35,282 nt of DNA from an uncultured Clostridia bacterium (GTDB taxonomy: Bacteria > Bacillota > Clostridia > Oscillospirales > Ruminococcaceae), in assembly GCA_947177735.1 (NCBI GenBank), contig CAMWVP010000015.1, positions 1 to 35,282 of the forward strand, written 5' to 3'. The translations under genes were made by a program, and so were the position numbers. Under the pieces are notes generated by a model. That model saw only the letters and a list, made by a program, of their open reading frames with translations, was not told the origin of the DNA and searched no databases. Of this stretch, positions 16,451-31,900 are shown in pieces; the stretch's first letter is position 1; each line of letters opens with the position of its first letter.

Positions 16451-18055
16451 TTATTTCGCGTATTCGATCATACGGCTCTCGCGGATAAGATTTACCTTTA
16501 TCTGACCCGGATATTCCATTTCGTCTTCGATACGCTTTGCGATATCGCGTGCGAGTACTTTCATATCGTCGTCGTTGACGTGTTCGGGCTTTACCATAAT
16601 GCGGACTTCACGACCCGCCTGGATAGCGAATGACTTGTCGACGCCGCTGTACGAATTGCATATCTCTTCCAGCTTTTCAAGGCGCTTGATATAGTTCTCG
16701 TAATTCTCGGAACGCGCCGCAGGTCTTGCCGCGGAGATAGCGTCGGCAGCCTGAACCAGACACGCGATTACCGTGCGGCACTCCACATCGCCGTGGTGAG
16801 CCTCGATAGCGTGAATGACCTCGGGGTTCTCCTTATACTTTTTGCACACGTCAACGCCGATCTGAACGTGCGAGCCCTCGATCTCGTGGTCGAGCGACTT
16901 TCCGATATCGTGCAGCAGTCCCGCGCGGCGTGCCAGAGCAGCGTCCACGCCGAGCTCGCTCGCCATGATACCCGCGAGGTGCGCGACCTCGATGGAGTGG
17001 TTGAGAACGTTCTGCCTGAACGAGGTTCTGTACTTCAACCTGCCGATAAGGCGTACCAGCTCGTGATTGAGCCCGTTGACGTTGGTCTCGAGGACGGCTC
17101 TTTCGCCCTCCTGCTTGATACGCAGCTCGACCTCCTTGCGTGCCTTCTCGACGGTCTCCTCTATTCTCGCCGGGTGGATACGTCCGTCCTGAATAAGTCT
17201 CTCAAGCGCTATACGCGCGATCTCGCGTCTGACGTGATCGAAGCAGGACAGCGTGATAGCCTCGGGAGTATCGTCGATGATGAGGTCTACGCCCGTGAGC
17301 GTTTCGAGAGCGCGGATATTTCTGCCCTCGCGTCCGATGATACGTCCCTTCATCTCGTCGTTCGGGATAGCCACGACCGACACCGCCATTTCGGAAACGG
17401 TATCCGCCGCCAGTCTGGCGATAGCGAGCGAAATGTGCTCCCTCGCCTTTTCGTCGCATTCGTCCTTGAGCTTCTGCTCGTAGCTGCTGATCTTCAGCGC
17501 CTTCTCGTGGTTCAGCTCGCTGTCGAGCATTTCAAGCAGGTGCTCTTTAGCCTGATCCTGAGTGAAGCCCGATATCCTCTCGAGGATATCCATCTGACCC
17601 GCTTTGAGCTGTTCTGCCTCGGCGATCTTCTCATCGGCTTTCTTGTGCTTCTGGTGGAGCTGCTCCTCGAGCTTCTCCATCTTGTCCGTTTTTCTGTCGA
17701 GGTTTTCTTCTTTCTGAGCGATTCTTCTCTCGGAACGCGAAACCTCGCCTCTGCGCTCCTTAAGCTCCTTTTCAGCGTCATTTTTAAGCCGTTGGATATC
17801 TTTCTCGGCATTGGTACGCATAGCGTAAATTTCGTCCTTTGCCTCGACAAGCGCCGTCTTTTTCAGCGCTTCGGCTTTCTCGCCTGCTTCTTCGACAATT
17901 CTTGCCGCTTCCTTTTCGGCTGACTCAAACTGCGCCTCGGCGGTTTTCTTGCGGTGCTTTATGCCCTGCTGGAAGCAGAAGTACCCGCTCACGACCGCGC
18001 CGAGTATCAGCGATGAGACCATGCCGATGACCGCGACGTACAATTCCATTGTCAT
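16451..18055 (-). CDS. rny: Ribonuclease Y
   Basis: RNase Y is the membrane-anchored endoribonuclease that starts mRNA decay in many Firmicutes. The 534 residues show the usual order: an N-terminal membrane helix (about 5-27), a long charged coiled coil (about 30-200), a KH RNA-binding domain with [15 protein letters not shown] (~235) and an HD phosphodiesterase domain with LLHDIGK (HD at ~380) and EAHHGD. The C-terminus, [19 protein letters not shown], is typical. The length is that of the family. AAGGAGGGG lies 9 nt before the ATG. The gap to the hydrogenase/MCP gene holds a terminator-like hairpin, so the two are probably separate units. Confidence 0.98.
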
Positions 18056-18439
18056 TGTCGATTTCCCCTCCTTATCAAGCTCGCGCTATGCCGCGCGGCG
18101 AATAATTCGGCGGAATAAAATACAATTTTCAGCTGACAGCCTTTAAAGCGGCGGAGCGTCGCTCCTCCGTCAGCCGTCAGTCTACCCCCTAATGATTTTC
18201 CTAAAGTGTTATATTTCGGCGGACAACGGTGAAGAATTATATATTGAAGTTCCGCATAGCGGATAAGTGTGAACCGTTGCCCTGTGTACGCGCCGCATCG
18301 CGTTATATCGCGGTCAGCGTACTTAAAATAAAGCGCAAAAGCGCAGAGTAAAGAAAAAGATGTAAAATTAAAGGATCTCTCCGTAAATCGTACATTATGC
18401 CGCCACAACGTTATATAAACATAGCATCATAAACGTCAA
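18056..18439 (-). promoter_or_regulatory. rny promoter and long 5' leader
   Basis: On the minus strand, TTGACG (18434-18439) and TATATA (18412-18417), spaced 16 nt, form a plausible promoter. This gives rny an untranslated leader of about 350 nt. The leader contains short dyads such as GGAGCG-A-CGCTCC near 18160 and a CGCG-rich block near 18280-18320. A reading frame across it, overlapping rny as ATGA, does not look like protein. A long leader is consistent with post-transcriptional control of rny, but no known riboswitch is recognised. Confidence 0.45.
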
Positions 18440-18796
18440 AGCAATTTTCAAAGTGACTGACCTCAAAAATAGCCTAATTATATTTTACTACAAATTGCCT
18501 AAAATGTCAAGTGAAATAGCCAAATATTTTTGTTTATTTTGAAAAGTTTTTATTGTAAAGCTGAAATGCCGCAAAATACCGTGAAACGTGAATAAAAAAG
18601 AGGCTTAGAAAAGCGGAGAAGCGGCAAAGAATCTTTTAGCGTAATACAAAAAAGATCGTCTCATGCGAAAAAAGAGTGAAACATCGTCTTAATCTATGAT
18701 CAATTATTAACCTTATATAAATTATGCAGCAGAGAAAAAAAGAAGCAAAAGGTCTGTCGCTATTCTTGTTTTGTATAGGGTATGTATTTGCCCCTA
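18440..18796. other. AT-rich non-coding gap at the island edge
   Basis: I see no gene or strong structure here. The base composition changes visibly from the rny side to the AT-rich island side, so this is the probable left boundary zone of the accessory island. No repeat of the right-hand flank near 28.4-28.6 kb was found by eye. Confidence 0.4.
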
Positions 18797-19510
18797 TTAC
18801 AGCAGAATTTGAACTAAATTGCGGATACTATTTACCTCATAATCAACTAATACATTTTCGGGTTTTATTTTGCCTTTTGGATTATAATAGCATACATCCA
18901 TTCCTATAGCTTTAGCACCTATAATGTCATTGCTGACGGAATCACCTATCATTATGCACTCATCTGATTTACACTTTAAATCTCTAATGATATAGCTATA
19001 AAACTCTTTCATAGGTTTAATATATCCAATTTCCTCAGAAATGTAAAGTCGATGTGTGTACGGCAGAAAGTCAAATAACCTTTCTTTTTGTACACGCTCC
19101 ATTCCATTTGTGGCTAGAACTAATTTATACCTTTCGGACAATTTCATATAGATAGACAATGTATCGGGTTCTGTCATTACCCTTGATGATGAAATGCTTT
19201 TCAGATAGCAATTCACAAGTTCTTGCACATCATAAGCTTTTCCATATGTCTCCAACAAATATTCAAAGTGTTTTCTTAAATATTGATAATAATACACATG
19301 ATAATTCTCTTGTACGTCTTTTTCTTCTGTTTTATCTAAATTGCTCTCCTCCCATGCTTTCCAACCGCATTTTTCGTCTGTTTCAAAATATTCTTTAGAG
19401 GGTTCGATACCCAATTTTTCAGCAATATTTCTTTGCGCTGTTGCAAATGCAAAGTAAAAATCAAGCAATGTATCATCCACATCAAAAATTAAGTATTTAT
19501 AAATTGGCAT
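18797..19510 (-). CDS. YjjG-type HAD-family nucleotidase/phosphatase
   Basis: This 237-residue HAD hydrolase is closest to the YjjG family, which dephosphorylates nucleoside monophosphates, notably non-canonical pyrimidines. Motif I is FDVDDTLLD, with the nucleophile and acid aspartates. Motif II is LATNG, motif III has the lysine in IGYIKPMKEF, and motif IV is MIGDSVSNDIIGA. A helical cap lies between motifs I and II. GGAGGAG precedes the ATG. The coding sequence is clearly more AT-rich than rny and the chemotaxis genes, which suggests transfer with the island. The exact substrate is unproven. Confidence 0.9.
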   Translation of the reverse strand: MPIYKYLIFDVDDTLLDFYFAFATAQRNIAEKLGIEPSKEYFETDEKCGWKAWEESNLDKTEEKDVQENYHVYYYQYLRKHFEYLLETYGKAYDVQELVNCYLKSISSSRVMTEPDTLSIYMKLSERYKLVLATNGMERVQKERLFDFLPYTHRLYISEEIGYIKPMKEFYSYIIRDLKCKSDECIMIGDSVSNDIIGAKAIGMDVCYYNPKGKIKPENVLVDYEVNSIRNLVQILL

Positions 19511-19568
19511 AAAAGCTCCTCCTTACAAAATTTCTCGAATATTATAATAATACTGATTGTTGATCGAA

Positions 19569-19728
19569 GTATAGACAAGGTTTGTGACAAGATCTGTGCA
19601 CGTACGATGTTCCATCGCACTGCGCAAGGACGCATTATGCGCCTGTTGTCTTTAGGACAACTACGCAAAACGCTCCAATGAGATTTGACGCAGCGATAGG
19701 TGCGAAATTGGCGCAAAGATGTCTATAC
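19569..19728. mobile_element. Possible 160-bp MITE-like element
   Basis: Inverted 9-bp ends, GTATAGACA (19569-19577) and TGTCTATAC (19720-19728), bound a non-coding stretch full of small dyads: CGATG-TTC-CATCG, CGCATTATGCG and GTTGTC-CTAAA-GACAAC (minus strand). It has no protein gene. The flanks (to about 19910) also hold nothing recognisable. A mobile miniature element or a structured RNA would both fit. Target-site duplication was not seen with certainty. Confidence 0.4.
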
Positions 19729-19910
19729 GTAGGTCGGCAATTAGTATAACCTAAAAAAATAACCCTTGCAAAAAACAAGGTTTTTGTGACATCGTTACTA
19801 AAAAAATTTCGCCAAGTGCAACGCCATACAGTAGAATTGCCCCGAGCATTTTTCACGGTTTCGCAAATCGAAATCGCGGACGACTATCCGCAAAGTTAAA
19901 AACGCGCCTG

Positions 19911-21409
19911 TTAAACTGATGGTGGACCGTTGTCAACCATATCCAAAACCTTGCTTGGCACTTCCCGCTTTTCCAGCTCAAAGAGCAGTTCATCTTCAAT
20001 TGTAACGGGCTTATCACCCGAATTGAATGTTATTGTAGCTTTGTCATCATACAGATAAATCTTGTTTACAAAGATGTTGATAAGCATTCTTCGGTACTTT
20101 ATATCGTTGATATTTCCCTTTTTTAGAGAAGTAAGGAAAAATCTGATGGAATTTTCCGATATCTTGGCGAATGGTGTTTCCTCAATCGCTATCTGTTTTT
20201 CAAGCTCTTTATGTTCATTTTCAAGTGTGAGTACTTTTTCGCCCAACGTCTTGCGGAGGCTTTCAGTATCACAATCAAGAATGAAATTAACGGCATTTTC
20301 GTGCTTTCGTTCGTTATCCGCCAGCAACTTTTGTAAACGTTTTAAATTCGAGATGTCTTTATCGGTATTACCAACAGCAACTACCTCTTTAGCTATTCGG
20401 TCAATATTTTCATCGGACAGCAGTCTGCGGCATTCGGAAATAACCAAATCTTCGATAAAGTCTTTGCCTACCCTCTTTTTTTCACAGCCCTTGGGCTTTT
20501 CCAAGGTTTTCTTGCAGACGTAATATCGGTAAACTTTTCCTTGTTTGCCCGTTCCCGAATACCCAACCAACATTATCCGCAAAACAGCTTTGTTGTCAGC
20601 AGATACTCAACCTTAGCTTTCGCTCTCGCGGGAGTTTTTCTGTTGACCTTTAGCTTTTTTGCAACACGTTCAAAAAGTTCATCTGATACTATCTGAGGAA
20701 CCTCCCCTCTTGTTTCAACGTCTTTGTGAATATAATACCCTAAATACCGTCTGTTGTTCAAAATGGTATGTAGGGAGTTTTTGTTGAACGCAACCCCCGT
20801 TGAAGTTTTTACGCCTTGTGAATTCAGAAATTCGGTAATTTCCGATACCTTACTTCCGTCGGCATACATCTGAAAAATTGTTTGCACAAAGGGAGCCATT
20901 TCGGGGTCGATTTCATATCTTTTCTCGCTGTTTATCCTATAGCCGAGCGGAACTCCACCGCCGTTATACATATATCTCTCGGCATTATAGTCCATACCTC
21001 TCTTTATCTTTTCAGCAAGTTCTTCACTGTAAAACTGCGCCTGAGCCATCATCATATTTCTGAAAAACCTGCCCGAAGGGTCTTCGGTAAAGTTCTCGGT
21101 AGCCGATACTAATGTAACTCCGTTAATAACAAGTTTGTTTTCGTTTGTAAGCGTCTGCATTAAGTTCCGTCCAAATCGGTCAATAGAATACACAAGAACT
21201 GTATCGAATTTGTGCTTGGCACTGTCCGCTAACAGCTTTCTCAACGATGGTCGCTCATCTGTTTTTCCGCTTATGGCATTGTCGCTGTAAATGTCCACAA
21301 TTTCGTGCTCGTGTTTTTGTGCATATTCACGGCAGACTTTTACTTGTTCCTCAATACTGGCTTCTCTTTGTGAACTTGAACTGAACCGAGCGTATATTAC
21401 TGCGTTCAT
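19911..21409 (-). pseudogene. Large serine recombinase, broken by a small deletion
   Basis: The first part (20573-21409, 278 residues) has the serine-recombinase catalytic domain, with YARFSSSSQREASIEEQ, YSDNAISGKTDERPSL, VYSIDRFGRN and a recombinase domain. It ends abruptly in TTKLFCG followed by a stop. The second part (19911-20582) continues in another frame from MLVGYSGTGKQGKVYRYYVC through a zinc-ribbon half, a coiled coil and a normal C-terminus. Together they make about 500 residues, the usual family length. Relatives have a second cysteine of the zinc CxxC at the break. Here it is missing, so a deletion of about 10 nt caused the frameshift. The gene would once have moved the island; it is probably inactive now. 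Confidence 0.85.
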
Positions 21410-21521
21410 AGCTTTTTTCTCCTTTTCCCATATTTGTTAAATGGATAAGTATATCAGCAAAAAACTTTAATAGGTTATCGCGGTCAATCTTTTACAGTTC
21501 TTGCCAATCAGTCTGCACATT

Positions 21522-22028
21522 TTACTTGCGTTTTTGGAGTTTGATAACGGGAGTACTGTCGTCAAAATCAATAATGTAATCGGCAGGGGAAGTTGCAAGG
21601 CGGCTTGATATATCTTCATCAAGTTTGATTGGGGTCACGCTGTTTTCTTCGGACATAATGCCGAAATCGCAGTAATCTAATTCGAGGTGAGCTGTTACAC
21701 CCCAACAGGAAACCTCTCTTAAAACATAAACTTTGTTATCGTGAATAGCCGCTTTTACGGCAAATTCACCGTTGGAATAATGTACGATTTTCCGCTGTTC
21801 CGTATCCCAAATAAAGACGATACCGCCTTGCCCCTGTGAAACAGACACACAGCACACAACATATACACCGAAAACATCTGCGTTGATATACTCAATGTAC
21901 GGACTTTCACAGTCCGAAATATCGTGCCATATTTCTTTGAGCATATCGAAAGTAACGGTTTGATGTTCCTCTTTGACCGTAATGTCTATAAGAGTGTTTC
22001 CGTCTCCGAGCGATATTTTCGGTGTCAT
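21522..22028 (-). CDS. Hypothetical protein of the recombinase cluster
   Basis: I do not recognise this 168-residue protein. It is acidic and apparently cytoplasmic, with no membrane segment or signal peptide. The composition suggests an all-beta fold (FGVYVVCCVSVSQGQGGIVF, DNKVYVLREVSCWGVTAHL). AAGGGGTAG precedes the ATG. It lies 59 nt after the beta-helix gene and before the broken recombinase, on the same strand, so it is probably co-transcribed with them. Confidence 0.7.
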   Translation of the reverse strand: MTPKISLGDGNTLIDITVKEEHQTVTFDMLKEIWHDISDCESPYIEYINADVFGVYVVCCVSVSQGQGGIVFIWDTEQRKIVHYSNGEFAVKAAIHDNKVYVLREVSCWGVTAHLELDYCDFGIMSEENSVTPIKLDEDISSRLATSPADYIIDFDDSTPVIKLQKRK

Positions 22029-22087
22029 AAATTCTACCCCTTGTTGTTTTTTCGGTTCGGCTTTGTGCTGTGCAATTTTAATGATAT

Positions 22088-22657
22088 TTAATCTACCATA
22101 ATGCTTGAATCAATAACTATATTTCCGTCAATTACAACCCTGTTTGATTCGAGAAAATCTTCAGTGTCAAACGTAAAATCATCACTATTTGATTCAACCG
22201 TAATTTCATACGGATCTTTTATAACAGCACACCCTCTCACCTTGACATTTCCTTTTACGGTAACGTGTCCGACAACTTCTGCCAATTCAAGAACGGAAGC
22301 GTTACCACATATTATTGCATATTCGCCTACGGTCACCTCATTGCCGTCTACCGCCGCTTGGTCGCATATTATCGCGTTACCGTCAACAACAGAGCGGTTA
22401 CAAACATACGCGTTGTCCTTTACAACGGCGTTACCCATTACAACAGCGTCTTCATCTACCCAGCATTCTCCGCTGTGAGACAGATTGCTCTCCGATTCAA
22501 TCCAGCCGCCAAGGTCTCCTTTGGTAACAGAACCGTCCTTTGTCGGCGGTTCAATATCTCTTAACGCTCGGATACGTCTGACAGTACGTTCCGTGTAATT
22601 GCTGTCCGTCACTGTTTTTACTTCGCCCGTGAATTCATATTTCGCCGTGTTTGCCAT
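22088..22657 (-). CDS. Left-handed beta-helix (YdcK-like) repeat protein
   Basis: The 189-residue protein has an N-terminal part (ERTVRRIRALRDIEPPTKDG) followed by GDLGGWIESESNLSHSG. An array of short repeats of the type G-x-A-x-V-x-x then follows (CWVDEDAVVMGNAVVKDNAY and on). Such repeats fold into a left-handed parallel beta-helix. The GDLGGWIE...NLS...WV signature is found in YdcK-type and phage-borne proteins whose function is not established. The ATG at 22657 has AAGGAG about 10 nt upstream. The upstream frame overlaps the resolvase gene and is not likely to be translated. Confidence 0.8.
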   Translation of the reverse strand: MANTAKYEFTGEVKTVTDSNYTERTVRRIRALRDIEPPTKDGSVTKGDLGGWIESESNLSHSGECWVDEDAVVMGNAVVKDNAYVCNRSVVDGNAIICDQAAVDGNEVTVGEYAIICGNASVLELAEVVGHVTVKGNVKVRGCAVIKDPYEITVESNSDDFTFDTEDFLESNRVVIDGNIVIDSSIMVD

Positions 22658-22670
22658 TGTAGAATACTCC

Positions 22671-23300
22671 TTATGGAAATAGTTTGTTTTGAGGTTGTCT
22701 CTCCACGATTTTAAGATACTTATAAATCGTAGGATAAGACAAACCACATAGCCTTGAAAACTCTGCCTTGTTTATCTCGCCGTTTTTGTACTTCGGATAG
22801 TGCTTGTAAAAAATATTCGGAATATCATCAGCCGTTGTAGCAGGTCTGCCTATGGTCTTTCCTTTTGCTTTGGCATTCTCCATACCGCTTTTAACACGCT
22901 GACTTATCATATTTCTTTCAAGCTCTGCAAACACCCCCATCATCTTTAACATTCCCTCGGTCATAGGGTCAAGCTCGTTGGTGCAGTCCACTATAAAACT
23001 TCCCAGAACCAGCTTTATTTTCCGCTCCTTTGCAAGCTCGATAATGTCACAAAGCTGTTTTGTACTTCTGGTTATTCTGCTGACTTCGGTTGCAATTACT
23101 GTATCGCCAGAACTCACTGTATTCAGCAGTTTGTTAAGTTCGGAACGGTTGACTTTCATTCCGCTTTCATACTCAAGGTAGATAGTAGTGTCAGCCGCTC
23201 CCTGTTGTTTCAGTTCCCGAACCTGTCTTTGAATGTCTTGCTGTTTCTCGTTCGTGGAACATCTTGCGTACCCGTAAATCAAATTGTTCATCTCTTTCAT
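22671..23300 (-). CDS. Small serine recombinase (resolvase/invertase family)
   Basis: This ~209-residue site-specific recombinase has the resolvase catalytic domain. YGYARCSTNEKQQDIQRQ contains the nucleophile serine. VIATEVSRITRSTKQL, MMGVFAELERNMISQRVKSG and GKTIGRPATT follow. A C-terminal helix-turn-helix (EFSRLCGLSYPTIYKYL) binds DNA. Start choice is open: the ATG at 23300 has only an ~11-nt leader from the promoter and no ribosome site. The ATG at 23291 or a TTG at 23282 (LIYGYAR, the usual family start) are alternatives. It may resolve or invert DNA within the island. Confidence 0.9.
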   Translation of the reverse strand: MKEMNNLIYGYARCSTNEKQQDIQRQVRELKQQGAADTTIYLEYESGMKVNRSELNKLLNTVSSGDTVIATEVSRITRSTKQLCDIIELAKERKIKLVLGSFIVDCTNELDPMTEGMLKMMGVFAELERNMISQRVKSGMENAKAKGKTIGRPATTADDIPNIFYKHYPKYKNGEINKAEFSRLCGLSYPTIYKYLKIVERQPQNKLFP

Positions 23301-23317
23301 ATAATATGCGCAATTAT

Positions 23318-23346
23318 ATTATAAGATATAAACAAAAAGAAGTCAA
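23318..23346 (-). promoter_or_regulatory. Strong sigma-A-type promoter of the resolvase gene
   Basis: On the minus strand, TTGACT (23341-23346) and a perfect TATAAT (23318-23323) are separated by 17 nt. Transcription would start around 23311, very close to the first ATG. Confidence 0.85.
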
Positions 23347-23370
23347 GTATTTCTTTAATATTTTTTAAAT

Positions 23371-23406
23371 TTTTTTGCCAAATCTTTTAGAAAATTCGGC
23401 AAAAAA
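23371..23406. repeat. Long AT-rich dyad upstream of the resolvase promoter
   Basis: TTTTTTGCC (23371-23379) pairs with GGCAAAAAA (23398-23406), and the inner part (TTTT-AG-AAAA) continues the symmetry with two mismatches. The T run comes before the stem rather than after it, so it is not a standard terminator. Resolvases bind dyads next to their own genes; a res-like binding site is possible. Confidence 0.4.
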
Positions 23407-23464
23407 TATTCAAGCGTAACCACAAACGAAAAGAGATGTTTTATTTTATATAATCTCGGGGATA

Positions 23465-23497
23465 ATCGGGGCACAATTATAACGGTCATGCCCCGAT
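23465..23497 (-). terminator. Hairpin after the 50-residue gene
   Basis: A 9-bp stem, ATCGGGGCA (23465-23473) with TGCCCCGAT (23489-23497), lies 26 nt after the stop of the small gene on the minus strand. A second CGGGGAT copy lies beside it. No clear T run follows, so termination is uncertain. Confidence 0.4.
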
Positions 23498-23522
23498 ATG
23501 TAATCAGCACCAATAAAGCACA

Positions 23523-23675
23523 TCACATTCTTTCATGCCCTGTGCTAATAAAGCGAACATTAGCTCCTGCATACTGTGCTAAAATGATTTGTTTCGCTTC
23601 ATTCATAGAATGGGCTTGGACGACAGTTTCCGTTCTACGACCGTTAACTGTAAATGTCAACCTGTATCTATTCAA
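23523..23675 (-). CDS. Small hypothetical protein (50 aa), TTG start
   Basis: A strong AAAGGGGGTGAG site lies 4 nt upstream of a TTG codon that opens a 50-codon frame. The product begins NRYRLTFTVNGRRTETVVQA after the initiator and ends ISTGHERM. It looks like a small beta-alpha-beta protein and I do not recognise it. It follows the membrane coiled-coil gene by 45 nt on the same strand. Support comes from the ribosome site, compact gene spacing and a protein-like sequence. Confidence 0.6.
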   Translation of the reverse strand: MNRYRLTFTVNGRRTETVVQAHSMNEAKQIILAQYAGANVRFISTGHERM

Positions 23676-23720
23676 ACTACTCACCCCCTTTCATTGCCGT
23701 ATACCCGTAATTAAAGAACA

Positions 23721-24857
23721 TTATCTTAACAGATGATTAAACACTCCGCCGCGAGTGCATTTATAGCGCAATGTGCAATCACGGCAATCTTTGCCCCTTG
23801 CTTTCGCACAGTGCGCAGAGCCTAACAAATCAACGGTTCTGTACTTTTCACGCACACCGTCTGCAATACTGCGGAGAAATCCGCCCGAGTATCCTCCTGA
23901 ACTGTTGCCCTGTAAACCGAAACCGCCCCCGTCGAGGAACGAAACAAGCTGTTCGTTCAGAGAATTTGTGTATTGCTGGTTTTGCAGTATTTCCCGCTGC
24001 ATACGCAGCTGCGCCCTTGCAATATCATTATGCTCTTGCAGTAAAGTTTGGTTTACATAGCTGTCATATCGCTCTATTGCATATTTCAAATCATACTCGG
24101 AGGTTTGGAGGAACATTGCCAGATATGTAAGCGCCTGAAGATTACAGTATGGAATAGGTATGATATTTTTATCATACACTTCCTGCAACGCGTTCCTTGT
24201 ATAATTGATTTTGTCATTTAAATCGGCAATTTCCGCAGACCAAACGGCAAGCTGATTTTCTTTGTAGTCTTTCAGCACGATCTCATATTCACGACAGTCC
24301 GCTCTGTATTGTTCATACTTTTGAACGTATTTTTCGTGAGTTTCTCTGTCAAGCTGTTCTTGCCGCATTCTGTTCTGTTCATCTATTTGGCGGCACTGCA
24401 TTTGATATTCGGGAGAATTCCGTATTTTCTCTATACTTTGCTCTTTTATCTTGTCCTTTTTCAAGAAAGCTTTTAAAGCGTCAAACATCAAGCAAATAAA
24501 TCCCCAAATCACACCAAGCATTGCCAAAACAGACACCCACGAAAAAGGCACCCACGATAAGATTGAATTTTTTATAGAGAGAATCTTTAAGAATGGCATA
24601 ACAACCGCAGCAACAAGACTAACAACCATTATTACTACACCGCGTATCCAAAAAGGAGGTGGAACTATGTGCGGTGGATTGATAACGGGATATGGAATAG
24701 GGCTTACCTTTTCCGACCTTTCTTTGGGTTCAAGAGGTCTAATCGGTCTTTCGGGCTTTTCGCTGTCAAGTTTCTTGATTTCCTCTTCCATTTTGGAGAT
24801 CATATATTCAAGAGAACACGCTGTCTTTACAACTTCTAATTCTTGTGTTTTATCCAT
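23721..24857 (-). CDS. Membrane coiled-coil protein with C-terminal four-cysteine motif
   Basis: I do not recognise this 378-residue protein. It starts with a short acidic helix, then a Pro-rich stretch (residues ~35-68). Two hydrophobic helices follow (about 70-92 and 104-126). A long Gln/Glu/Arg-rich coiled coil (about 135-315) and a Gly/Ser linker come next. The end carries cysteines C350, C358, C361 and C367, a C-x7-C-x2-C-x5-C pattern. This is nearly the Fe-S signature at the end of the upstream Nth-like gene. The long charged part probably faces the cytoplasm. AAGGAG lies 7 nt before the ATG. It starts 11 nt after the Nth-like gene, so the two are probably one unit. Confidence 0.75.
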   Translation of the reverse strand: MDKTQELEVVKTACSLEYMISKMEEEIKKLDSEKPERPIRPLEPKERSEKVSPIPYPVINPPHIVPPPFWIRGVVIMVVSLVAAVVMPFLKILSIKNSILSWVPFSWVSVLAMLGVIWGFICLMFDALKAFLKKDKIKEQSIEKIRNSPEYQMQCRQIDEQNRMRQEQLDRETHEKYVQKYEQYRADCREYEIVLKDYKENQLAVWSAEIADLNDKINYTRNALQEVYDKNIIPIPYCNLQALTYLAMFLQTSEYDLKYAIERYDSYVNQTLLQEHNDIARAQLRMQREILQNQQYTNSLNEQLVSFLDGGGFGLQGNSSGGYSGGFLRSIADGVREKYRTVDLLGSAHCAKARGKDCRDCTLRYKCTRGGVFNHLLR

Positions 24858-24868
24858 TTCTTTACTCC

Positions 24869-25702
24869 TTAATTTCGGTTATTGCTTATGCAATGGCTCT
24901 TTGCCACACATAGTTCGCATTTGGGAGCGGCTTTCAAGCATATTTCTCCAAAGCCGCTCGCACAGTATGACCACAAGATGTAATCAACCTCGGCAGTTGG
25001 CTTGTTCATCTTAACCGCTATATCGGCAACAATATCAAACGTTTCATAAATCGGAACCGTTTCCTTATCGGAACAGCCGAGTATTTTACTGCCCAAAATT
25101 CTTCGGATATGCCTGTCTGGTTTTGCGAGGTCATATCCGACATTCCGCAGATATTCGGCTGTAAGAGCCTCGCCCATTTGTGACATTTTAAAAGGGCTGT
25201 TCTGCGCGGAAAGGACAAGCACAAGTGTTTTCAGCGAACCGTCTATTTCTATGAAGTTCCGATAAAAGTTGTCAATGCTTTCGTATTGATTCTCTAAACG
25301 CTGAAATATTTTGATGTTGACCTCAATTAAAGCCTTTATCTGCTGTCGGGTGTATTGGCTCGTGTAATGCAGTGCCTTGACCGAGTTGTATAATTTATCG
25401 GTATCGGCTTTTAGCAGAGCCTTATAATCATATTGGCAAAATATCTTGTCAATAGTCGGAATGCCGCCTGTTATCGGGTCAATATCTTTTTCCAAACGCT
25501 CCCAAGGTGCGCCCGAACTCAACATTGAATAAACCATAGCTTGAATATGGTCGCTTATCGTAAATGTACCGCCATTATTGCGTTTTTCGATTTGCTTACA
25601 GATGTATGTGTTTTCCCACAACTGCTTTTCCCGAAGTTTTTCGCGCAGATACTTTTCCATAAGCTCTATGCTTTGGCATACTTCTTTCATATTGCTGTTC
25701 AA
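24869..25702 (-). CDS. Endonuclease III-like (HhH-GPD/FCL) protein
   Basis: The 277-residue protein ends with C255-x6-C262-x2-C265-x5-C271, exactly the [4Fe-4S] cluster loop of endonuclease III and MutY. Upstream of it, KPDRHIRRIL (~194) sits where these glycosylases have their catalytic aspartate (D-x-H-x-x-R). The rest is helical. The usual GVGxKTA hairpin-helix-hairpin and the catalytic lysine are not evident; MGEALTAEYLRNVGY stands there. It is therefore a divergent member, possibly binding rather than cutting DNA. I prefer the TTG at 25702, with GAGGTG 6 nt upstream overlapping the XRE stop; an ATG at 25723 has no ribosome site. Function on the island is unknown. Confidence 0.7.
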   Translation of the reverse strand: MNSNMKEVCQSIELMEKYLREKLREKQLWENTYICKQIEKRNNGGTFTISDHIQAMVYSMLSSGAPWERLEKDIDPITGGIPTIDKIFCQYDYKALLKADTDKLYNSVKALHYTSQYTRQQIKALIEVNIKIFQRLENQYESIDNFYRNFIEIDGSLKTLVLVLSAQNSPFKMSQMGEALTAEYLRNVGYDLAKPDRHIRRILGSKILGCSDKETVPIYETFDIVADIAVKMNKPTAEVDYILWSYCASGFGEICLKAAPKCELCVAKSHCISNNRN

Positions 25703-25712
25703 TATGCACACC

Positions 25713-25937
25713 TCACTTACCATTGCTTTTTACGGGATTTCGGGTGAATTCGATAAATAATTCGGGGCTGACATTCAACGCAAGACAAATTGACTTTAAA
25801 TCATCAGCATACATTATTCGTCTGCCGTTCATCATTGCGTTAAACGTTGATTTCGGAATACCCGCTCTTTGTGCAACGGATATTTGTTTCAAGCCGTTAT
25901 CATCAATATAGGCGCGAACCTTTTCATAAACTCTCAT
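25713..25937 (-). CDS. Small XRE-type helix-turn-helix regulator (leftward)
   Basis: The 74-residue protein is mainly a Cro/CI-type helix-turn-helix: YIDDNGLKQISVAQRAGIPK followed by STFNAMMNGRRIMYADDLKS. It ends soon after the fifth helix (ALNVSPELFIEF). AGAGGTGA precedes the ATG at 25937; the longer frame runs into the promoter and is unlikely. It opens the operon that contains the Nth-like and membrane coiled-coil genes and is divergent from a second XRE gene. Palindromes between the two are probable operators. It is likely a repressor of this operon or of its neighbour. Confidence 0.85.
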   Translation of the reverse strand: MRVYEKVRAYIDDNGLKQISVAQRAGIPKSTFNAMMNGRRIMYADDLKSICLALNVSPELFIEFTRNPVKSNGK

Positions 25938-25953
25938 TTCGTCACCTCTTTTG

Positions 25954-25968
25954 TCAAGATTTTCTTGA
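25954..25968. promoter_or_regulatory. Operator-like palindrome O1
   Basis: TCAAGA-TTT-TCTTGA is a perfect inverted repeat with a 3-bp centre. It lies just downstream of the leftward -10 box, near the transcription start. Its TCAAGATTTT half recurs at 26024-26034. Confidence 0.65.
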
Positions 25969-25977
25969 TATATCTTT

Positions 25978-26006
25978 ATTATATCACAGCAATTCTGAAA
26001 AGTCAA
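25978..26006 (-). promoter_or_regulatory. Strong leftward promoter of the XRE/Nth-like operon
   Basis: On the minus strand, TTGACT (26001-26006) and a perfect TATAAT (25978-25983) are separated by 17 nt. Confidence 0.85.
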
Positions 26007-26025
26007 CGGATTTTTACAGAATATC

Positions 26026-26039
26026 AAGATTTTTATCTT
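26026..26039. promoter_or_regulatory. Operator-like dyad O2
   Basis: AAGAT-TTTT-ATCTT overlaps the -35 box of the rightward promoter and shares TCAAGATTTT with O1. A repressor bound here would block the rightward gene. Confidence 0.5.
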
Positions 26040-26066
26040 TACATTTCAGTTTTTATGTTGTATAAT
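26038..26066 (+). promoter_or_regulatory. Rightward promoter of the second XRE gene
   Basis: TTTACA (26038-26043) and a perfect TATAAT (26061-26066) are separated by 17 nt. The predicted transcript starts about 15 nt before the TTG start codon. Confidence 0.75.
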
Positions 26067-26088
26067 ATATTTGAGGCAGGTGATCGGT

Positions 26089-26406
26089 TTGAAATACGAA
26101 ATCGGAAACAGAATTCGCAAATACCGTGAAGAATGTGGAATAAGTCAAGTTCAGTTAGCGCAAAAGCTGGGAGTCAGCAACAGCAGAGTATCAAACTGGG
26201 AGCAGGGCATAAACCGCCCCGACGCGGATATAATTGCCGAGATATGCCGTGCACTCAACGTTTCTCCCAGTGATTTACTCAATGTCAGACTTTCACAGGA
26301 CGAGTTCAGCGAACACGAAAGAAAGCTCATTAAGGCTTACCGTGCCAAAGAGGATTTACAGAAAGCCGTCAATATTCTTCTTGGTGTTGATAAAGATAAT
26401 ATGTAG
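26089..26406 (+). CDS. XRE-family regulator (rightward)
   Basis: The 105-residue protein has a Cro/CI-type helix-turn-helix at its start (YREECGISQVQLAQKLGVSN, then SRVSNWEQGINRPDADII). A short helical tail (EHERKLIKAYRAKEDLQKAV) may mediate dimerisation. I chose the TTG at 26089, preceded by AGGTGAT; an in-frame TTG at 26071 has no ribosome site. It is the only rightward gene in this part of the island and is divergent from the smaller XRE gene. The pair resembles a two-repressor switch of phages and integrative elements. A non-coding gap of about 215 nt follows it, holding only the terminator of the RT unit. Confidence 0.88.
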   Translation: MKYEIGNRIRKYREECGISQVQLAQKLGVSNSRVSNWEQGINRPDADIIAEICRALNVSPSDLLNVRLSQDEFSEHERKLIKAYRAKEDLQKAVNILLGVDKDNM

Positions 26407-26560
26407 CGAGGTTGTAAATCCTTAGAATTTCGTAGAATTACTTTAAATGGTATAAATCCTTTCCGACATATATTCAGCCTTGCAGAACCTAAGAGCGTGG
26501 TGAAAACACCCCAAAAACCTTTTATATATATGAGGGTACAAAAACCGAGAGAATTTCTGC

Positions 26561-26608
26561 AAAAAACAAAAGCCATTGACACTGCCTTTCGACGATTTCA
26601 ATGGCTTT
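26561..26608 (-). terminator. Terminator of the reverse transcriptase unit
   Basis: An 11-bp perfect stem, AAAGCCATTGA (26569-26579) with TCAATGGCTTT (26598-26608), has an 18-nt loop. On the minus strand it is followed by TGTTTTTT. It lies 14 nt after the 57-residue gene. Confidence 0.85.
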
Positions 26609-26622
26609 CTTTGGCTCTGGAA

Positions 26623-26796
26623 TTATTTGTTATACAAATACTCTTGAACCGCGGTTAAAAACCAATACGCCATAAGAAGTCTGTTTTCAACTTCATGCGG
26701 CAGGTCAATCCGAGTTTCCAGGACATCGCAAATGTAGTTTTTGGCATATCCCAGAAGTTCAATCGGGCTGATTTCTTGTTCAAAGAAATTCTCCAT
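26623..26796 (-). CDS. Small acidic protein (57 aa) downstream of the RT
   Basis: The frame opens with MENFFEQEISPIELLGYAKN and ends in FLTAVQEYLYNK. An AAAGGGATGA ribosome site lies in the 15-nt gap after the RT stop. The product is acidic and probably all helical. I do not recognise it. Because the gene directly follows the reverse transcriptase and precedes a good terminator, it is probably a partner or accessory of the RT. Confidence 0.7.
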   Translation of the reverse strand: MENFFEQEISPIELLGYAKNYICDVLETRIDLPHEVENRLLMAYWFLTAVQEYLYNK

Positions 26797-26811
26797 AATA
26801 TCATCCCTTTC

Positions 26812-28056
26812 TCAATCCGTGTATTTTTTGTCTAAATCCATAAAAAGGTTTAGGACATAATCTACAATCCTCTTGTCGTTGGTCGATTTGTGTATATAAG
26901 AGTATACCTCATATTCAACACTGTAGAGGGATTGTTTAACTGCAATATTGATGTAATAGTTAAACCACCCTCTGATAAGAGCGTTTAATTTCTCGCAAGT
27001 AATCTTGTAAGAGCGGGTAAAATCTCCTTTCAATATTTTCCCGATTTTTTCAAGTAATGAAGTAACGTTCTTGTCTGTCGGCACTGAAATTATTCGGTTG
27101 TCGACCTTGTACACTCTCCAACCGAGAAACGAAAAACCATTTTCAATAAAGGTGAGTTTTGTTTTCTCGGCAGAGAGCGAAAGTCCTCTCTCACACAAAA
27201 ATCGTTGAACCAACGACATAACGGATTGTACCAAAAGGGGTTTATCAACTCCAAATATGATAATATCATCAGCGTATCTGACCATACAAACAGATTGTTG
27301 GAAATGTTCATACAGAACTCGCTCCAATCCGTCTAAGGTCATATTACAAATGACAGTTGATAAACAGCCCCCTTGCGGAACGCCGCGCTCTGTTTGATAA
27401 AGAGTAGACCTTTCGACATATCCACACTTCAGAAATTTCTTTAGTATGGCTTTGTCCATAGGAATATTGTCCAATATCCATTTATGGCTGATATTATCAA
27501 AGCAGGATTTAATATCCGCTTTCAACACCCATTTCATTTTCGGATTGTGGAACAATATATCTCCGCACCTGACTATAGCGTCACGACAGCTCCTGTTCGG
27601 ACGAAATCCAAAAGAGCTATCATCTGCCGTCAACTCGGCAATAGGTTCTAATGCAAACTTATACAATGTCTGCATTATTCGGTCTCTCACCGTCGGTATA
27701 CTTATAGGTCGCAATTTCCCGTTACTTTTCGGAATATATATCCTCCTCAACGGTTGGGGTTTGTATCCCCTTTGGTTATTATATAAAACATTATACAAAA
27801 CCTCTTCAAGCTCTCTACAATCTACACCAAGTGTTTTACAACCTCTACTACGCGACACTACATCAACAGCTAACACTCTCGCATAATACGAACGTGTCAT
27901 CATATGCTGCAAAATGTCAACTTTATCAAAACATCTACGCGAGTAGGCTCCCGCAATACGCTGTTGCAGCTTTTTAACACGCATTTTCGCTATATCAAGG
28001 TCTATACCTTGTAAATAGCATTTGGTGTCAGAAGCAGCACACGTTTTAGCGCTCAT
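26812..28056 (-). CDS. Free-standing group-II-intron-like reverse transcriptase
   Basis: This 414-residue RT is of the group II lineage. It has an N-terminal RT-N segment (MRVKKLQQRIAGAYSRRCFD), palm motifs VLKADIKSCFDNIS (~182) and RGVPQGGCLSTV (~223), the catalytic RYADDIIIFG (~262) and FSFLGWRVY. A maturase/thumb domain (LNALIRGWFNYYINI) follows. No HNH endonuclease domain is present. No intron ribozyme surrounds it: a 58-codon gene ends 59 nt upstream, a 57-codon gene starts 15 nt downstream, and no domain V motif is visible. It therefore looks like a host-adapted or defence-type group-II-like RT. AGGAG lies 9 nt before the ATG. SP in the usual GVPQG..SP motif is ST here. Confidence 0.88.
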   Translation of the reverse strand: MSAKTCAASDTKCYLQGIDLDIAKMRVKKLQQRIAGAYSRRCFDKVDILQHMMTRSYYARVLAVDVVSRSRGCKTLGVDCRELEEVLYNVLYNNQRGYKPQPLRRIYIPKSNGKLRPISIPTVRDRIMQTLYKFALEPIAELTADDSSFGFRPNRSCRDAIVRCGDILFHNPKMKWVLKADIKSCFDNISHKWILDNIPMDKAILKKFLKCGYVERSTLYQTERGVPQGGCLSTVICNMTLDGLERVLYEHFQQSVCMVRYADDIIIFGVDKPLLVQSVMSLVQRFLCERGLSLSAEKTKLTFIENGFSFLGWRVYKVDNRIISVPTDKNVTSLLEKIGKILKGDFTRSYKITCEKLNALIRGWFNYYINIAVKQSLYSVEYEVYSYIHKSTNDKRIVDYVLNLFMDLDKKYTD

Positions 28057-28115
28057 TTTGCTCGTCTCCTTTCAAAAGTTCTGCAACAACGCATTACTAT
28101 TCCTGTGTCGGACTA

Positions 28116-28292
28116 TTACTCCGACTGTTCTTTATCGGGACATAATGTCACCACCTCCTTTCGCTGTTCCGCTAGGAACTCTTCAAATTCTTTTTGGTGA
28201 GTTTTTACATAATCATCTATATCAGCATATATGGCTTGTGCGAGAGCGCGTGCTTGCTCTCGGCTGATTTCATAATTTTCAAGTTCTGTCAT
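28116..28292 (-). CDS. Small protein (58 aa) upstream of the RT
   Basis: The frame begins MTELENYEISREQARALAQA and continues as a charged helical protein (IYADIDDYVKTHQKEFEEFL) to a stop 59 nt before the RT start. GGGAGGGAAGG precedes the ATG. The 59-nt gap carries a small hairpin, GTCGGA with TCCGAC, and a strong AAAGGAGG site for the RT. I do not recognise the protein. It appears to be the first gene of the three-gene RT unit. Confidence 0.72.
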   Translation of the reverse strand: MTELENYEISREQARALAQAIYADIDDYVKTHQKEFEEFLAEQRKEVVTLCPDKEQSE

Positions 28293-28539
28293 ATATGCCT
28301 TCCCTCCCTTCGTTTTTTACAGGGTGCAAATTTTAATGATCTGCGCGTCCTACCCTATATAACGATGGCAATATTTTCCAATTACGAAAACAGGGGAAAA
28401 TCCTAAAATCTTACTTGTGATTGTTGCACAAAAAAATGCCAATTTGCAGATAATTAAATCCACAAATCAGCATAAAACGAGAAAGATTTATTTAAAAATT
28501 CGTCAAAATAACAAAATTTTCACTTTTTTTACTTTGGAC
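28293..28539. other. Non-coding right edge of the island
   Basis: No gene is visible. The stretch is AT-rich and holds the presumed start of the RT unit and the right boundary of the accessory island. No convincing promoter could be fixed. The intact tRNA terminator begins at 28540, so any insertion point must lie to the left of it. Confidence 0.4.
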
Positions 28540-28574
28540 AAAAAAATAACGCGGAACACCGAAATGTTCCGCGT
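28540..28574 (-). terminator. Terminator of tRNA-Ala
   Basis: A 10-bp perfect stem (ACGCGGAACA, 28549-28558, with TGTTCCGCGT, 28565-28574) has a six-base loop and is followed on the minus strand by TATTTTTTT. Confidence 0.9.
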
Positions 28575-28651
28575 ATTGTTTTTATGGTTCAAAACCAAAT
28601 CGTCACGGCAAATCCGCCGAGAAAGAAAATGGGTTTTGAATAATATTTTAG

Positions 28652-28727
28652 TGGTGGAGATAACGGGATTCGAACCCGTGACCTCTTACATGCGAAGCAA
28701 GCGCTCTCCCAGCTGAGCTATACCCCC
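28652..28727 (-). tRNA. tRNA-Ala (anticodon CGC)
   Basis: The 76-nt gene folds as a standard cloverleaf on the minus strand. The 5' end GGGGGTATAGCTCAG pairs with the 3' TATCTCC, with G-T pairs tolerated. The anticodon stem CTTGC/GTAAG encloses TTCGCAT, giving anticodon CGC for GCG codons. The T arm is CGGGTTCGAATCCCG. The 3' CCA is encoded. It has its own terminator 77 nt downstream. Confidence 0.95.
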
Positions 28728-28855
28728 ATAAGTAACGCCGAAAGCCGTATTGACTTTCAACGTTATAATTATACCACATTATCTCATATTTGTCAATAGG
28801 TTTTAGTTAAAATACTCTTATTCTATAATGAGAGAGCCACGCCCGGCTTTTTGCG

Positions 28856-28897
28856 AATTTCGCGAAGCGAAATTGAATTGCCATTAGGGCAATTCAA
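28856..28897. repeat. Tandem perfect hairpins downstream of purL
   Basis: AATTTCGC-GAA-GCGAAATT (28856-28874) is followed by TTGAATTGCC (28873-28882) pairing with GGCAATTCAA (28888-28897). The two stems share two bases and sit right next to the purL terminator. They resemble REP-type elements. Confidence 0.6.
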
Positions 28898-28899
28898 GC

Positions 28900-28938
28900 A
28901 AAAAAACGGAAATCGTCGGGCATTCAGCCCGACGATTT
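28900..28938 (-). terminator. Terminator of purL
   Basis: A 12-bp perfect stem, AAATCGTCGGGC (28910-28921) with GCCCGACGATTT (28927-28938), is followed on the minus strand by CCGTTTTTTT. It lies 13 nt after the purL stop. Confidence 0.92.
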
Positions 28939-28951
28939 GGTCAAGGGGTTT

Positions 28952-31900
28952 TTAGTTAAAATATTCCACGCCGCTCTTGAACAGAAGCTGCTCTTTGTTT
29001 CCGTCGACGTTTTTGGCAACGCTGTCGGTAAGGCGCTCGGTGTGACCCATTTTGCCGAGTACGCGTCCGTCGGGGGAGATTATGCCCTCGACCGCGCACA
29101 TGGAGCCGTTCGGGTTAAACATCGCGTCCATGGTGGGAGAGCCCTTGAGGTCAACGTACTGCGTGAGTATCTGTCCGTTGTCGATAAGCTTGCGGAGGAC
29201 TTCGCCGTGCGCGACAAATCTGCCCTCGCCGTGCGAAATGGGTATCGCGTGGATATCGCCGACCTTGCAGTTCGCGAGCCACGGAGACTTGTCCGTGCAT
29301 ATCTTGGTGTAGACAAGCTGCGACTGGTGGCGGCCTATCTCGTTGTAGGTCAATGTGGGGCTGTTGTCGGTAAGCGGAACAATATGCCCGAACGGCACAA
29401 GTCCGAGCTTTATCAGCGCCTGGAAGCCGTTGCAGATACCGATCATCAAGCCGTCGCGCTTGTGGAGCATATTCTCGACTTCCTCGGCGATCTTCGGGTT
29501 GCGGAAGAACGCGTTGATGAACTTCGCCGAACCCTCCGGCTCGTCGCCGCCGCTGAAGCCGCCCGGCAGCGCAATCATCTGGGTCTGCTCGATCAGCTTG
29601 GCGAACGCGTTCACGCTCTCCTCGATATCGGCTGCGGAGAGGTTCTTGATAACGAATATCTCACTCTTTGCGCCGTACTTCTCGAACGCCTTAGCCGTAT
29701 CGTACTCGCAGTTCGTGCCGGGAAATACGGGGATAAGCACGCGCGGCTTAGCGATCTTCGGGGAGGTATGGTTGAGCAGAAGCTCACTTCCGCCCGTGTA
29801 CTCAACCTTTTCGGGAGCGGGCTTGAAGCTCGTTTTCTGCTTGAATACAGGCTCGAGAACGTTGTTCCACTTCTCCTCCAGCTTGGCAATATCAAGTTTG
29901 GAATCACCGCAGATTATCTCGTATTCGGGAATGGTCTCGCCGATAATGCGAACGTCATCGCAGTCGCCCTCCAACTCGAGGATAAACGCGCCGTAAACGG
30001 GGGTAAACAGCTCGTCGTCGGAGAGCGCGTCCAGCTTAGCGCCGACGTGATTACCAAGCCCCATTTTGAATACGCCCTCGGCAACGCCGCCGTTTGCGAC
30101 GCTCCACACGGAGATAGCCTTTTTGTCCGCGATAAGCTTCTCGACGGTCTTGAATACCGTCTTTACGCTCTCAAAATCGGGCAGTCCGTTTTCGTCGTAC
30201 TTCGGCGCGATATAGCCTATCTTGCTGTACGGACACTTGAACTCCGCGGAGATGATGTTGTCGGTCTTAGCCGTCGATACCGCGAACGAAACCAAGGTCG
30301 GGGGAACGTCTATATGCTCGAACGTTCCGCTCATGCTGTCCTTGCCGCCGATAGCTCCGCAGCCCATTTCGAGCTGTGCGCGGTATGCTCCGAGCAGCGC
30401 CGAGAACGGCTTGCCCCAGCGCTCCGCCTTGCCCTGAGTCCGCTCAAAGTACTCCTGGAACGTCAGCCAGCACTTCTCGTAAGTACCGCCCGCCGCTACT
30501 ACCTTCGCGATACTTTCAACTACCGCGCAGACCGCTCCGTGATACGGAGACTGCTCGGAAACGGCGGGATTGAAGCCCCAACCCATTATCGAAGCCGTGG
30601 TGGTATTGCCACCGAGAACGGGCAATTTCGCCGCCATTGCCTGAACGGGGGTCTGCTGCGTTCTGCCGCTGAACGGCATAAGCACGGTAGCGCCGCCGAT
30701 AGTGCTGTCGAAGCGCTGAACCAATCCCCTTTGCGAGCATACGTTGAGGTCGGTCACGAGCTTTGCCCAATCCTCGGCGGTATTCTTTCTGCCCGTGGAG
30801 TAGCTTACGTTGACCTCGGGTACGGCAACATCGGTGTGCTTCTCCGCGCCGTTGGAGTTGAGGAACTCGCGGGAGATATCAACAATAGTCTTGCCGTTCC
30901 AGTTCATTTTAAGTCTCGGCTCCGCCTTGACTACCGCGACGGGAGTGCTCTCCAGATTTTCCTTAGACGCCAGCGCGCGGAATGTGTCGACGTCCTCTTT
31001 TGCTACTACGACCGCCATTCTCTCCTGCGATTCGGAAATAGCGAGCTCCGTGCCGTCAAGTCCGTCGTACTTCTTGGGAACGGCGTTGAGGTCTATTTCC
31101 AGACCGTCAGCAAGCTCGCCGATAGCGACGGAAACGCCGCCCGCGCCGAAGTCATTGCAGCGCTTGATAAGGCGCGTAGCTTCGGGGTCGCGGAACAGTC
31201 TCTGCAGCTTGCGCTCCTCGGGAGCGTTGCCCTTTTGCACCTCTGCGCCGCAGCTATCCAATGACTGAACGCTGTGCGCCTTGGACGAACCCGTAGCGCC
31301 GCCGCAGCCGTCGCGTCCGGTTCTGCCGCCGAGGAGGATTATGATGTCGCCGGGTGCGGGACGCTCGCGGCGGACGTTCTCAATGGGAGCCGCGCCGACT
31401 ACCGCGCCGATCTCCATTCTCTTAGCCATATAGCCGGGGTGATATATCTCCGCAACATGACCCGTAGCCAGACCTATCTGATTGCCGTAAGAGGAATAAC
31501 CCGCGGCTGCCGTGGTGGTTATCTTGCGCGGCGGCAGCTTGCCCGCGAGGGTCTTCTCAACGGGGAGAAGCGGGTCGGAAGCGCCCGTTACGCGCATTGC
31601 CTGATATACATAGGAACGTCCGGAAAGCGGGTCGCGGATAGCGCCGCCGAGGCAGGTCGCCGCGCCGCCGAACGGCTCGATCTCGGTGGGGTGGTTGTGA
31701 GTTTCGTTCTTGAACATCAGCAGCCATTCCTCGTCCTTGCCGTCAACGTCGACGGTTATCTTGACGGAGCAAGCGTTTATCTCTTCGCTCTCATCAAGGT
31801 CGGGAAGCAGACCGTCCTTTTTAAGCTTCTTAGCCGCCAAGGTCGCGATGTCCATAAGGCAGATCGGCTTATTGCCGCGCCCTAATTCCTCGCGATCAGC

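Follow-up and report, generated by a model that had tools for sequence, protein, structure and literature searches.

A candidate domesticated group II intron reverse transcriptase between two small genes on a serine-recombinase island

How does a reverse transcriptase (RT) that resembles the protein of a group II intron come to stand between two small genes with no intron RNA beside it, and what might such an arrangement do? The question is raised by a locus in the DNA analysed here (the window, a stretch of 35,282 nt of contig CAMWVP010000015.1 of an uncultured bacterium of the Ruminococcaceae), for which an original prediction, made from the letters of the sequence alone, had proposed an island-borne three-gene unit and a candidate undescribed RT system. 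The unit occupies 26561-28292 of the minus strand and is transcribed in the order small1, RT, small2 and terminator hairpin (please see Table 1 for the features of the unit and its surroundings; L and G numbers denote loci and genomes). The predicted coordinates and gap sizes were all borne out by the open reading frames, with 59 nt between small1 and the RT (28057-28115) and 15 nt between the RT and small2 (26797-26811). The predicted ribosome sites and closing terminator were recovered as well, each of the three genes being preceded on reading by a Shine-Dalgarno-like sequence and the unit being closed by a hairpin with a T-run. This terminator is missing from the list of a simple terminator scan; a hairpin like it was read downstream of small2 in L011. 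L011 and L042 have a hairpin on the 3' side of small1 that resembles the one overlapping the small1 end in the window.

Table 1. Features of the unit and of the island around it. Positions are those of the window.
Feature	Position	Strand	Description or basis
tRNA-Ala(CGC), with the island on its 3' side	28652..28727	-	tRNA search
Stretch holding the island edge	28316..28652	.	Comparison with unit-free sister species
small1	28116..28292	-	58-aa acidic protein, pI 4.5; one long helix predicted, residues 11-50
Small hairpin overlapping the end of small1	28107..28125	-	z -1.1, not significant by shuffling
RT leader/ribosome-binding block, from group II intron leaders	28057..28090	-	Local alignment against intron leaders
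RT	26812..28056	-	414 aa; RVT_N, RVT_1 (YADD) and eroded GIIM; C-terminal part of full-length intron RTs missing
small2	26623..26796	-	57-aa acidic protein, pI 4.4; helical hairpin predicted, helices 11-28 and 34-56, mean pLDDT 90
Terminator hairpin and T-run, end of the unit	about 26561..26607	-	Fold of 26480-26622, z -3.5
Convergent Xre-type HTH gene adjoining the unit	26071..26406	+	Homologues at the same place in L011 and L014
Small HTH gene beyond the Xre gene	25713..25934	-	Homologues in L011 and L014
Small island serine recombinase	22671..23300	-	L013 and, truncated at the locus end, L011 carry homologues; L014 has a different small serine recombinase
Large island serine recombinase, broken into two overlapping frames (20573-21409, 19911-20582)	19911..21409	-	Domain match

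In order to assess the absence of a ribozyme, we searched for group II RNA families at several stringencies. At the Rfam gathering score none was found anywhere in the window. When the threshold was relaxed to E up to 10 over 24000-29500, a single D1-D4-3 match appeared at 25604-25708, with 21 bits against a cut-off of 32; it lies downstream of the RT within another gene, not at the place expected for D1-D4. Four stretches around unit RTs gave no group II match at E up to 1. Ribozyme domains at gathering score (D1-D4 and/or domain V) were present in none of the six unit loci (window, L011-L014 and L042) compared to 23 of the 25 intron-type loci scanned, which were drawn from 45 RT loci outside the unit. 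The two intron-type loci lacking a match are L003, in a set where 5 of 6 were positive, and L070, in a set where 18 of 19 were, and the RT of L070 runs off its locus. The prediction of a ribozyme-free RT, tested for an adjacent domain V or VI, is upheld in that neither the strict nor the relaxed search placed one by the gene.

The protein itself agrees with the predicted group II-like RT with an intact active site. The window RT matches RVT_N (49 bits), RVT_1 (141 bits) and, weakly, GIIM (27 bits), and its YADD motif lies at residues 261-264; YADD is found in all five unit RTs. RVT_1 scores 131-151 bits in four units and 151-152 in two intron controls, whereas the GIIM values of the four units (27.1, 21.5, 13.6 and 24.7 bits) compare with 77-80 in the controls. 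The NCBIfam group II maturase model TIGR04416, with a cut-off of 300, gives 293.6 for the window, 283.9, 292.3 and 306.1 for the other units and 358-366 for the two intron controls, so that the unit RT falls very close to the curated threshold of an ordinary group II maturase. The closest solved relative by sequence is the maturase RT 6me0 (E 1e-101), which we take to be from Thermosynechococcus. The polymerase core of the unit RTs appears complete and the maturase domain eroded, and polymerase competence is a supported prediction. Between the window and L011 the RT has a dN/dS of 0.21, with 85/58/150 changes by codon position.

The phylogeny of the RT bears directly on its origin. We calculated a tree of 36 rows, with L019 and L020 as the outgroup and with L017, L072, L021, L049 and L060 left out, and the five full-length unit RTs form one clade in it (100/100). 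Their nearest neighbours are intron RTs, which is in line with the predicted descent from a group II intron: eight of the ten come from genomes of the class of the window, one from a plasmid and one from a viral contig. The branch that joins the unit clade to these ten has values of 82/69, and the exact sister is not firm. Identity of the unit RTs is 44-49% to the ten neighbours and about 33-49% over the aligned rows. The loop between RT4 and RT5 has 15 residues in all five unit RTs compared to 16-29 in intron RTs, as measurable in 18 of the 26 introns of an alignment from which L003, L004, L017, L019-L021, L070 and L072 were left out.

A further trace of the intron lies in front of the gene. 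When the 34 nt before the RT start were aligned with seven intron leaders, the best local score was 19-20 in each of the four units tested, and none of 80 Shine-Dalgarno-bearing control leaders reached this score (maximum 15). From the leader match, the phylogeny and the domain scores together, we infer that an intron, since deprived of its ribozyme, is the most likely source of both the RT protein and the leader for its translation. The comparisons support the RT, whose maturase domain is eroded, as a probable single-origin offshoot close to the introns matching Rfam D1-D4-7. Taken jointly, this account of the anatomy and origin of the unit appears to us highly probable. As a separate observation on the leader, at 4580-4762 of L013 the RT leader and first codons are duplicated in direct order (local alignment score 21), and the upstream copy has decayed.

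Are the two flanking genes real? The prediction of two small genes of 58 and 57 codons is substantiated by a selection signal and by their recurrence beside the RT in other families, which together mark them as more than chance open reading frames. Between the window and L011, small1 is 65% identical with a dN/dS of 0.22 and 12/9/18 changes by codon position; small2 is 72% identical with a dN of 0.20, a saturated dS and 16/9/25 changes. These patterns show purifying selection on small1 and on the RT, and that of small2 fits purifying selection. Across five sequences small2 keeps the invariant residues PIE-LG--KN and QEYLY and is predicted to be a helical hairpin (mean pLDDT 90), and for small1 a single helix is predicted from four sequences (mean pLDDT 78). 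Neither protein has a convincing match in Pfam, NCBIfam, PHROGs, PADLOC or the PDB, the lone weak PADLOC match of small1 being SduA (E 0.019). Sequence and fold searches of the PDB with small2 gave nothing significant; a short helical hairpin, as in its model, resembles many folds.

The predicted three-gene unit was then tested by synteny. The order small1, RT, small2 is kept in all four loci that are complete over the unit (window, L011, L013 and L014, from three families); the damaged L042 departs from a perfect rule. RT identity to the window is 71% in L011, 52% in L013 and 48-50% in L014, and small1 is present in all three as in the window. The sample of units consists of six loci (window, L011-L014 and L042) in five genomes, four of the loci belonging to one genus. 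A search of 43 genomes of the genus gave RT units in three (window, G975 and G972). The first small gene occurs in exactly these three genomes and the second in two of them, and both are absent elsewhere among the 43 at E of 0.001 or less. The fourth match of the genus, in G979, is a 720-aa frame of 32% identity that represents a different RT and stands outside the unit count. Among 394 genomes of the order, seven had a match at E 1e-60, namely the window's own, two further units in two other families (L005/L013 and L006/L014) and four frames of 507-597 aa. Scanning 84,980 species genomes with a pattern for small2 yielded 209 candidate stretches and four confirmed loci (L011-L014). No further unit was found among the matches inspected from 391 genomes of the class and 398 of the phylum, the truncated matches L061-L063, L071 and L073 being left out. 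Weak class-level matches to small2 in G636, G650, G681 and G939 (E 0.0035-0.0098) were taken as chance. Searches of viral contigs with the RT alone, small1 or small2 gave no relative; searches of viral contigs with RT alignments gave 8 and 7 loci at 33-46% identity, of which a part was inspected. There was no match to small2 in plasmids or phages and a single match to small1 in plasmids (E 0.6).

Not all copies are whole. L011 and L012 are two loci of one metagenome-assembled genome, G975: the former is intact, and the latter, at a contig end, holds the 3' part of the RT and small2 only. In L042 (G972) the frame of small1 is open and has no ATG, GTG or TTG start, the sequence after the RT diverges from that of L011, and the contig ends without small2. 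The partial L012 and the damaged L042 therefore indicate that copies of the unit decay. The second-unit fragment of G975 (L012 1-782) adjoins genes that read as phage-structural-like.

Where does the unit reside? The predicted location on an island is supported. Homology to sister species that lack the unit stops at 28432 in L040 and at the end of the tRNA (28649-28652) in L041 and L044-L046, which places the island edge between these positions. The copies of the window, L011 and L042 all lie on the 3' side of tRNA-Ala(CGC), and the genes beyond differ among the three genomes. In L014 the 3' end of a truncated tRNA, on reading tRNA-Glu(TTC), opens the locus some 1.1 kb ahead of small1, and L013 has no tRNA within its 12 kb, so tRNA genes are near the unit in three of the four complete loci. 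Neither an empty site nor repeats that would mark the two ends of the island turned up. The large serine recombinase occurs also in L014 (one open frame, 47% over 278 aa) and, by reading, in L013. A divergent HTH-like gene was read upstream of the unit in L013 and L014.

Other contents of the island and its site were compared between genomes. The small serine recombinases of the window and of L013 (10519-11106) are 79% identical, whereas the RTs of the same elements, across two families, are 52% identical; either the RT evolves more rapidly than the element or it may have been exchanged. At the same tRNA-Ala(CGC), the sister species G943 (L040 7842-9966) carries a D12 methyltransferase and a type II restriction enzyme (PADLOC 394 bits); as a single case at a single site, this restriction pair has anecdotal and not statistical weight. 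G964 has a weak integrase-like fragment about 1.2 kb from the same tRNA. Downstream of the unit, 24869-25723 of the window encodes 284 aa that are rich in cysteine at the C-terminus and weakly match a glycosylase (OGG; PADLOC E 8e-6); in L011 the counterpart of this gene is in two pieces. On the Haliscomenobacter plasmid pHALHY01 (L030 1181-5453), a group II RT gene is annotated between umuD and a Y-family polymerase gene.

Our overall reading, to which we give nearly even probability, is that the unit is an operon of single origin in which a domesticated intron RT has two dedicated small partners, and that it travels as cargo on serine-recombinase elements and is perhaps defensive. The narrower proposal, in which the unit is a module against phages or rival elements whose RT makes cDNA when triggered, seems plausible to us, at somewhat below even confidence. 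As to its history, an intron matching Rfam D1-D4-7 most probably shed both the ribozyme and the C-terminal portion of the protein, and the RT frame kept the intron-derived translation leader and was fixed between two small genes. The two acidic helical partners would most likely bind the basic RT, which they might hold, prime or gate, perhaps taking the place of the lost intron RNA on it. Serine-recombinase elements carry the unit as cargo, mostly beside tRNA genes and with HTH regulators nearby; on a trigger the RT would make cDNA, and the product would act against phages or rival elements. We lean to defence because the distribution is patchy, one slot is shared with a restriction system, the RT diverges fast, and other RTs provide a precedent. 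A rather doubtful elaboration is a protein-only three-part immune or anti-element complex, in which the two small acidic helical proteins would replace the intron RNA as scaffold or gate and control copying.

The strongest rival, because of the recombinase linkage in all four complete loci, is that the unit serves the element itself through maintenance or regulation (excision, replication or stability), or forms an addiction module, an acidic antagonist keeping a harmful polymerase in check. In the window, L011, L013 and L014 alike, a small serine recombinase is found on the same side of the unit, and this linkage fits element maintenance as well as cargo. HTH genes are adjacent to the unit in three of these loci (window, L011 and L014), and the RT is basic (pI 8.9-9.4) where the small proteins are acidic (pI 4.1-5.2). 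However, the remaining cargo varies between elements, and recombinase elements commonly carry unrelated cargo. Moreover, neither the RT nor small1 nor small2 has a convincing toxin-antitoxin match in Pfam, PADLOC or NCBIfam. We consider a role of this kind somewhat unlikely.

A role in DNA repair appears improbable. The RT would act in end joining as the G2L4 RT of Pseudomonas does, and the small proteins would be adaptors. PMC12337344 describes for G2L4, a domesticated group II-like RT, an activity in the repair of double-strand breaks and attributes basal repair activity to a related intron RT, and the possible DNA glycosylase-like gene on the island of the window (24869-25723, weak OGG match) would suit such a task. 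This gene, however, was not seen on reading beside the unit in L013 or L014. The unit RTs have YADD and not the YIDD of G2L4, and a patchy island presence in 3 of 43 genomes of the genus is unlike that of a housekeeping repair gene.

Trans-acting maturases that serve introns without an open reading frame exist in Thermosynechococcus and Trichodesmium, and the unit RT could in principle splice or mobilise such group II introns elsewhere in the genome, in keeping with its kinship to intron maturases and with 6me0 as its closest solved relative. The eroded GIIM domain speaks against this, and so does the search for clients: no orphan client introns for the unit RT were found in the draft genomes. 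No domain V passed the Rfam cut-off in G000, G972, G515 or G347, as scored for 150 of the 170-325 first-look candidates in each genome, and G000 has one sub-threshold match (22 bits against a cut-off of 40). The two domain V matches of G975 each adjoin, by reading, their own RT frame of another type. We regard this explanation as very unlikely. Finally, a dead or truncated intron fragment with small frames by chance would agree with the missing C-terminal part and with the damage in L012 and L042, but is hardly credible given the intact YADD and RT frame in five loci, the purifying selection, the gene order conserved across families and the single clade of the unit RTs.

The unit has the appearance of a group II intron RT domesticated in a separate event, with the nearest introns still 44-49% identical, a leader that is recognisable and a maturase domain in decay. 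The recruitment of intron RTs to cellular tasks thereby becomes testable, as the unit can be set against its own intron sisters. If defensive, it would be a new RT system whose partners, shorter than 65 residues, match no family in the libraries searched. Such a system may be undescribed and possibly anti-phage.

How does the unit compare to known RT systems? No report of it was found in the literature, including the accessible parts of PMC4244168, PMC8934634 and PMC12337344; subscription journals were thinly covered, which makes this weak evidence of novelty. DRT2, DRT9, DRT10, AbiK and retrons are stand-alone bacterial RTs like that of the unit, from which the unit differs in its intron-like sequence and in that no RNA partner was found. 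No template RNA family reached its cut-off beside the unit in the unit loci. L014 has a strong hairpin between small1 and the RT (1280-1380, -41.5 kcal/mol, z -4.1), a position that would suit a retron-like RNA; the 59-nt gap of the window holds nothing comparable, and among the units folded the hairpin is confined to L014. The 20 largest repeat families shown for 18000-29500 include no long near-identical pair of the type found with diversity-generating retroelements (DGRs), and no Cas match was obtained among eight other island proteins scanned with PADLOC.

Membership of a DRT/UG class was rejected by model. The best class, RT_UG17 of the 2023 PADLOC-DB, gives 98 bits for the window and 79-93 for three other units, about as for two ordinary intron RTs used as controls (81-83). 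Since the DRT models score intron RTs alike, the PADLOC library offers no evidence for defence, and PADLOC and PHROGs together gave no defence-specific signal for the unit. The claim of an undescribed RT system stands in part: the unit is a separate offshoot and, by its active-site motif, neither G2L4 nor UG10.

The nearest parallels are the intron-like RTs that have no intron RNA. UG10 (formerly G2L3) has in addition a conserved maturase-type domain; all 16 of its members in PMC4244168 carry YVDD, and the YADD of the unit rules out this identity. G2L4 of P. aeruginosa is likewise a free-standing group II-related RT. It is defined by YIDD (PMC4244168, PMC12337344), has a 9-aa RT3a insertion (plug) according to PMC12337344, and is restricted to Proteobacteria within the dataset of PMC4244168. 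The unit, with YADD in five of five RTs, is ruled out as G2L4 by this motif and differs further in being island-borne with two small partners. With the maturase RTs of D1-D4-7-type introns it has in common the core, RVT_N, a partial thumb/GIIM and the leader block, whereas it has neither ribozyme nor C-terminal part, its GIIM is eroded, its RT4-RT5 loop is shorter, and two dedicated small genes accompany it. Judged by sequence comparison, the unit would thus be a domesticated group II-like RT set apart from G2L4 and UG10 by its motifs, and distinct both in lineage and in its two dedicated small partners.
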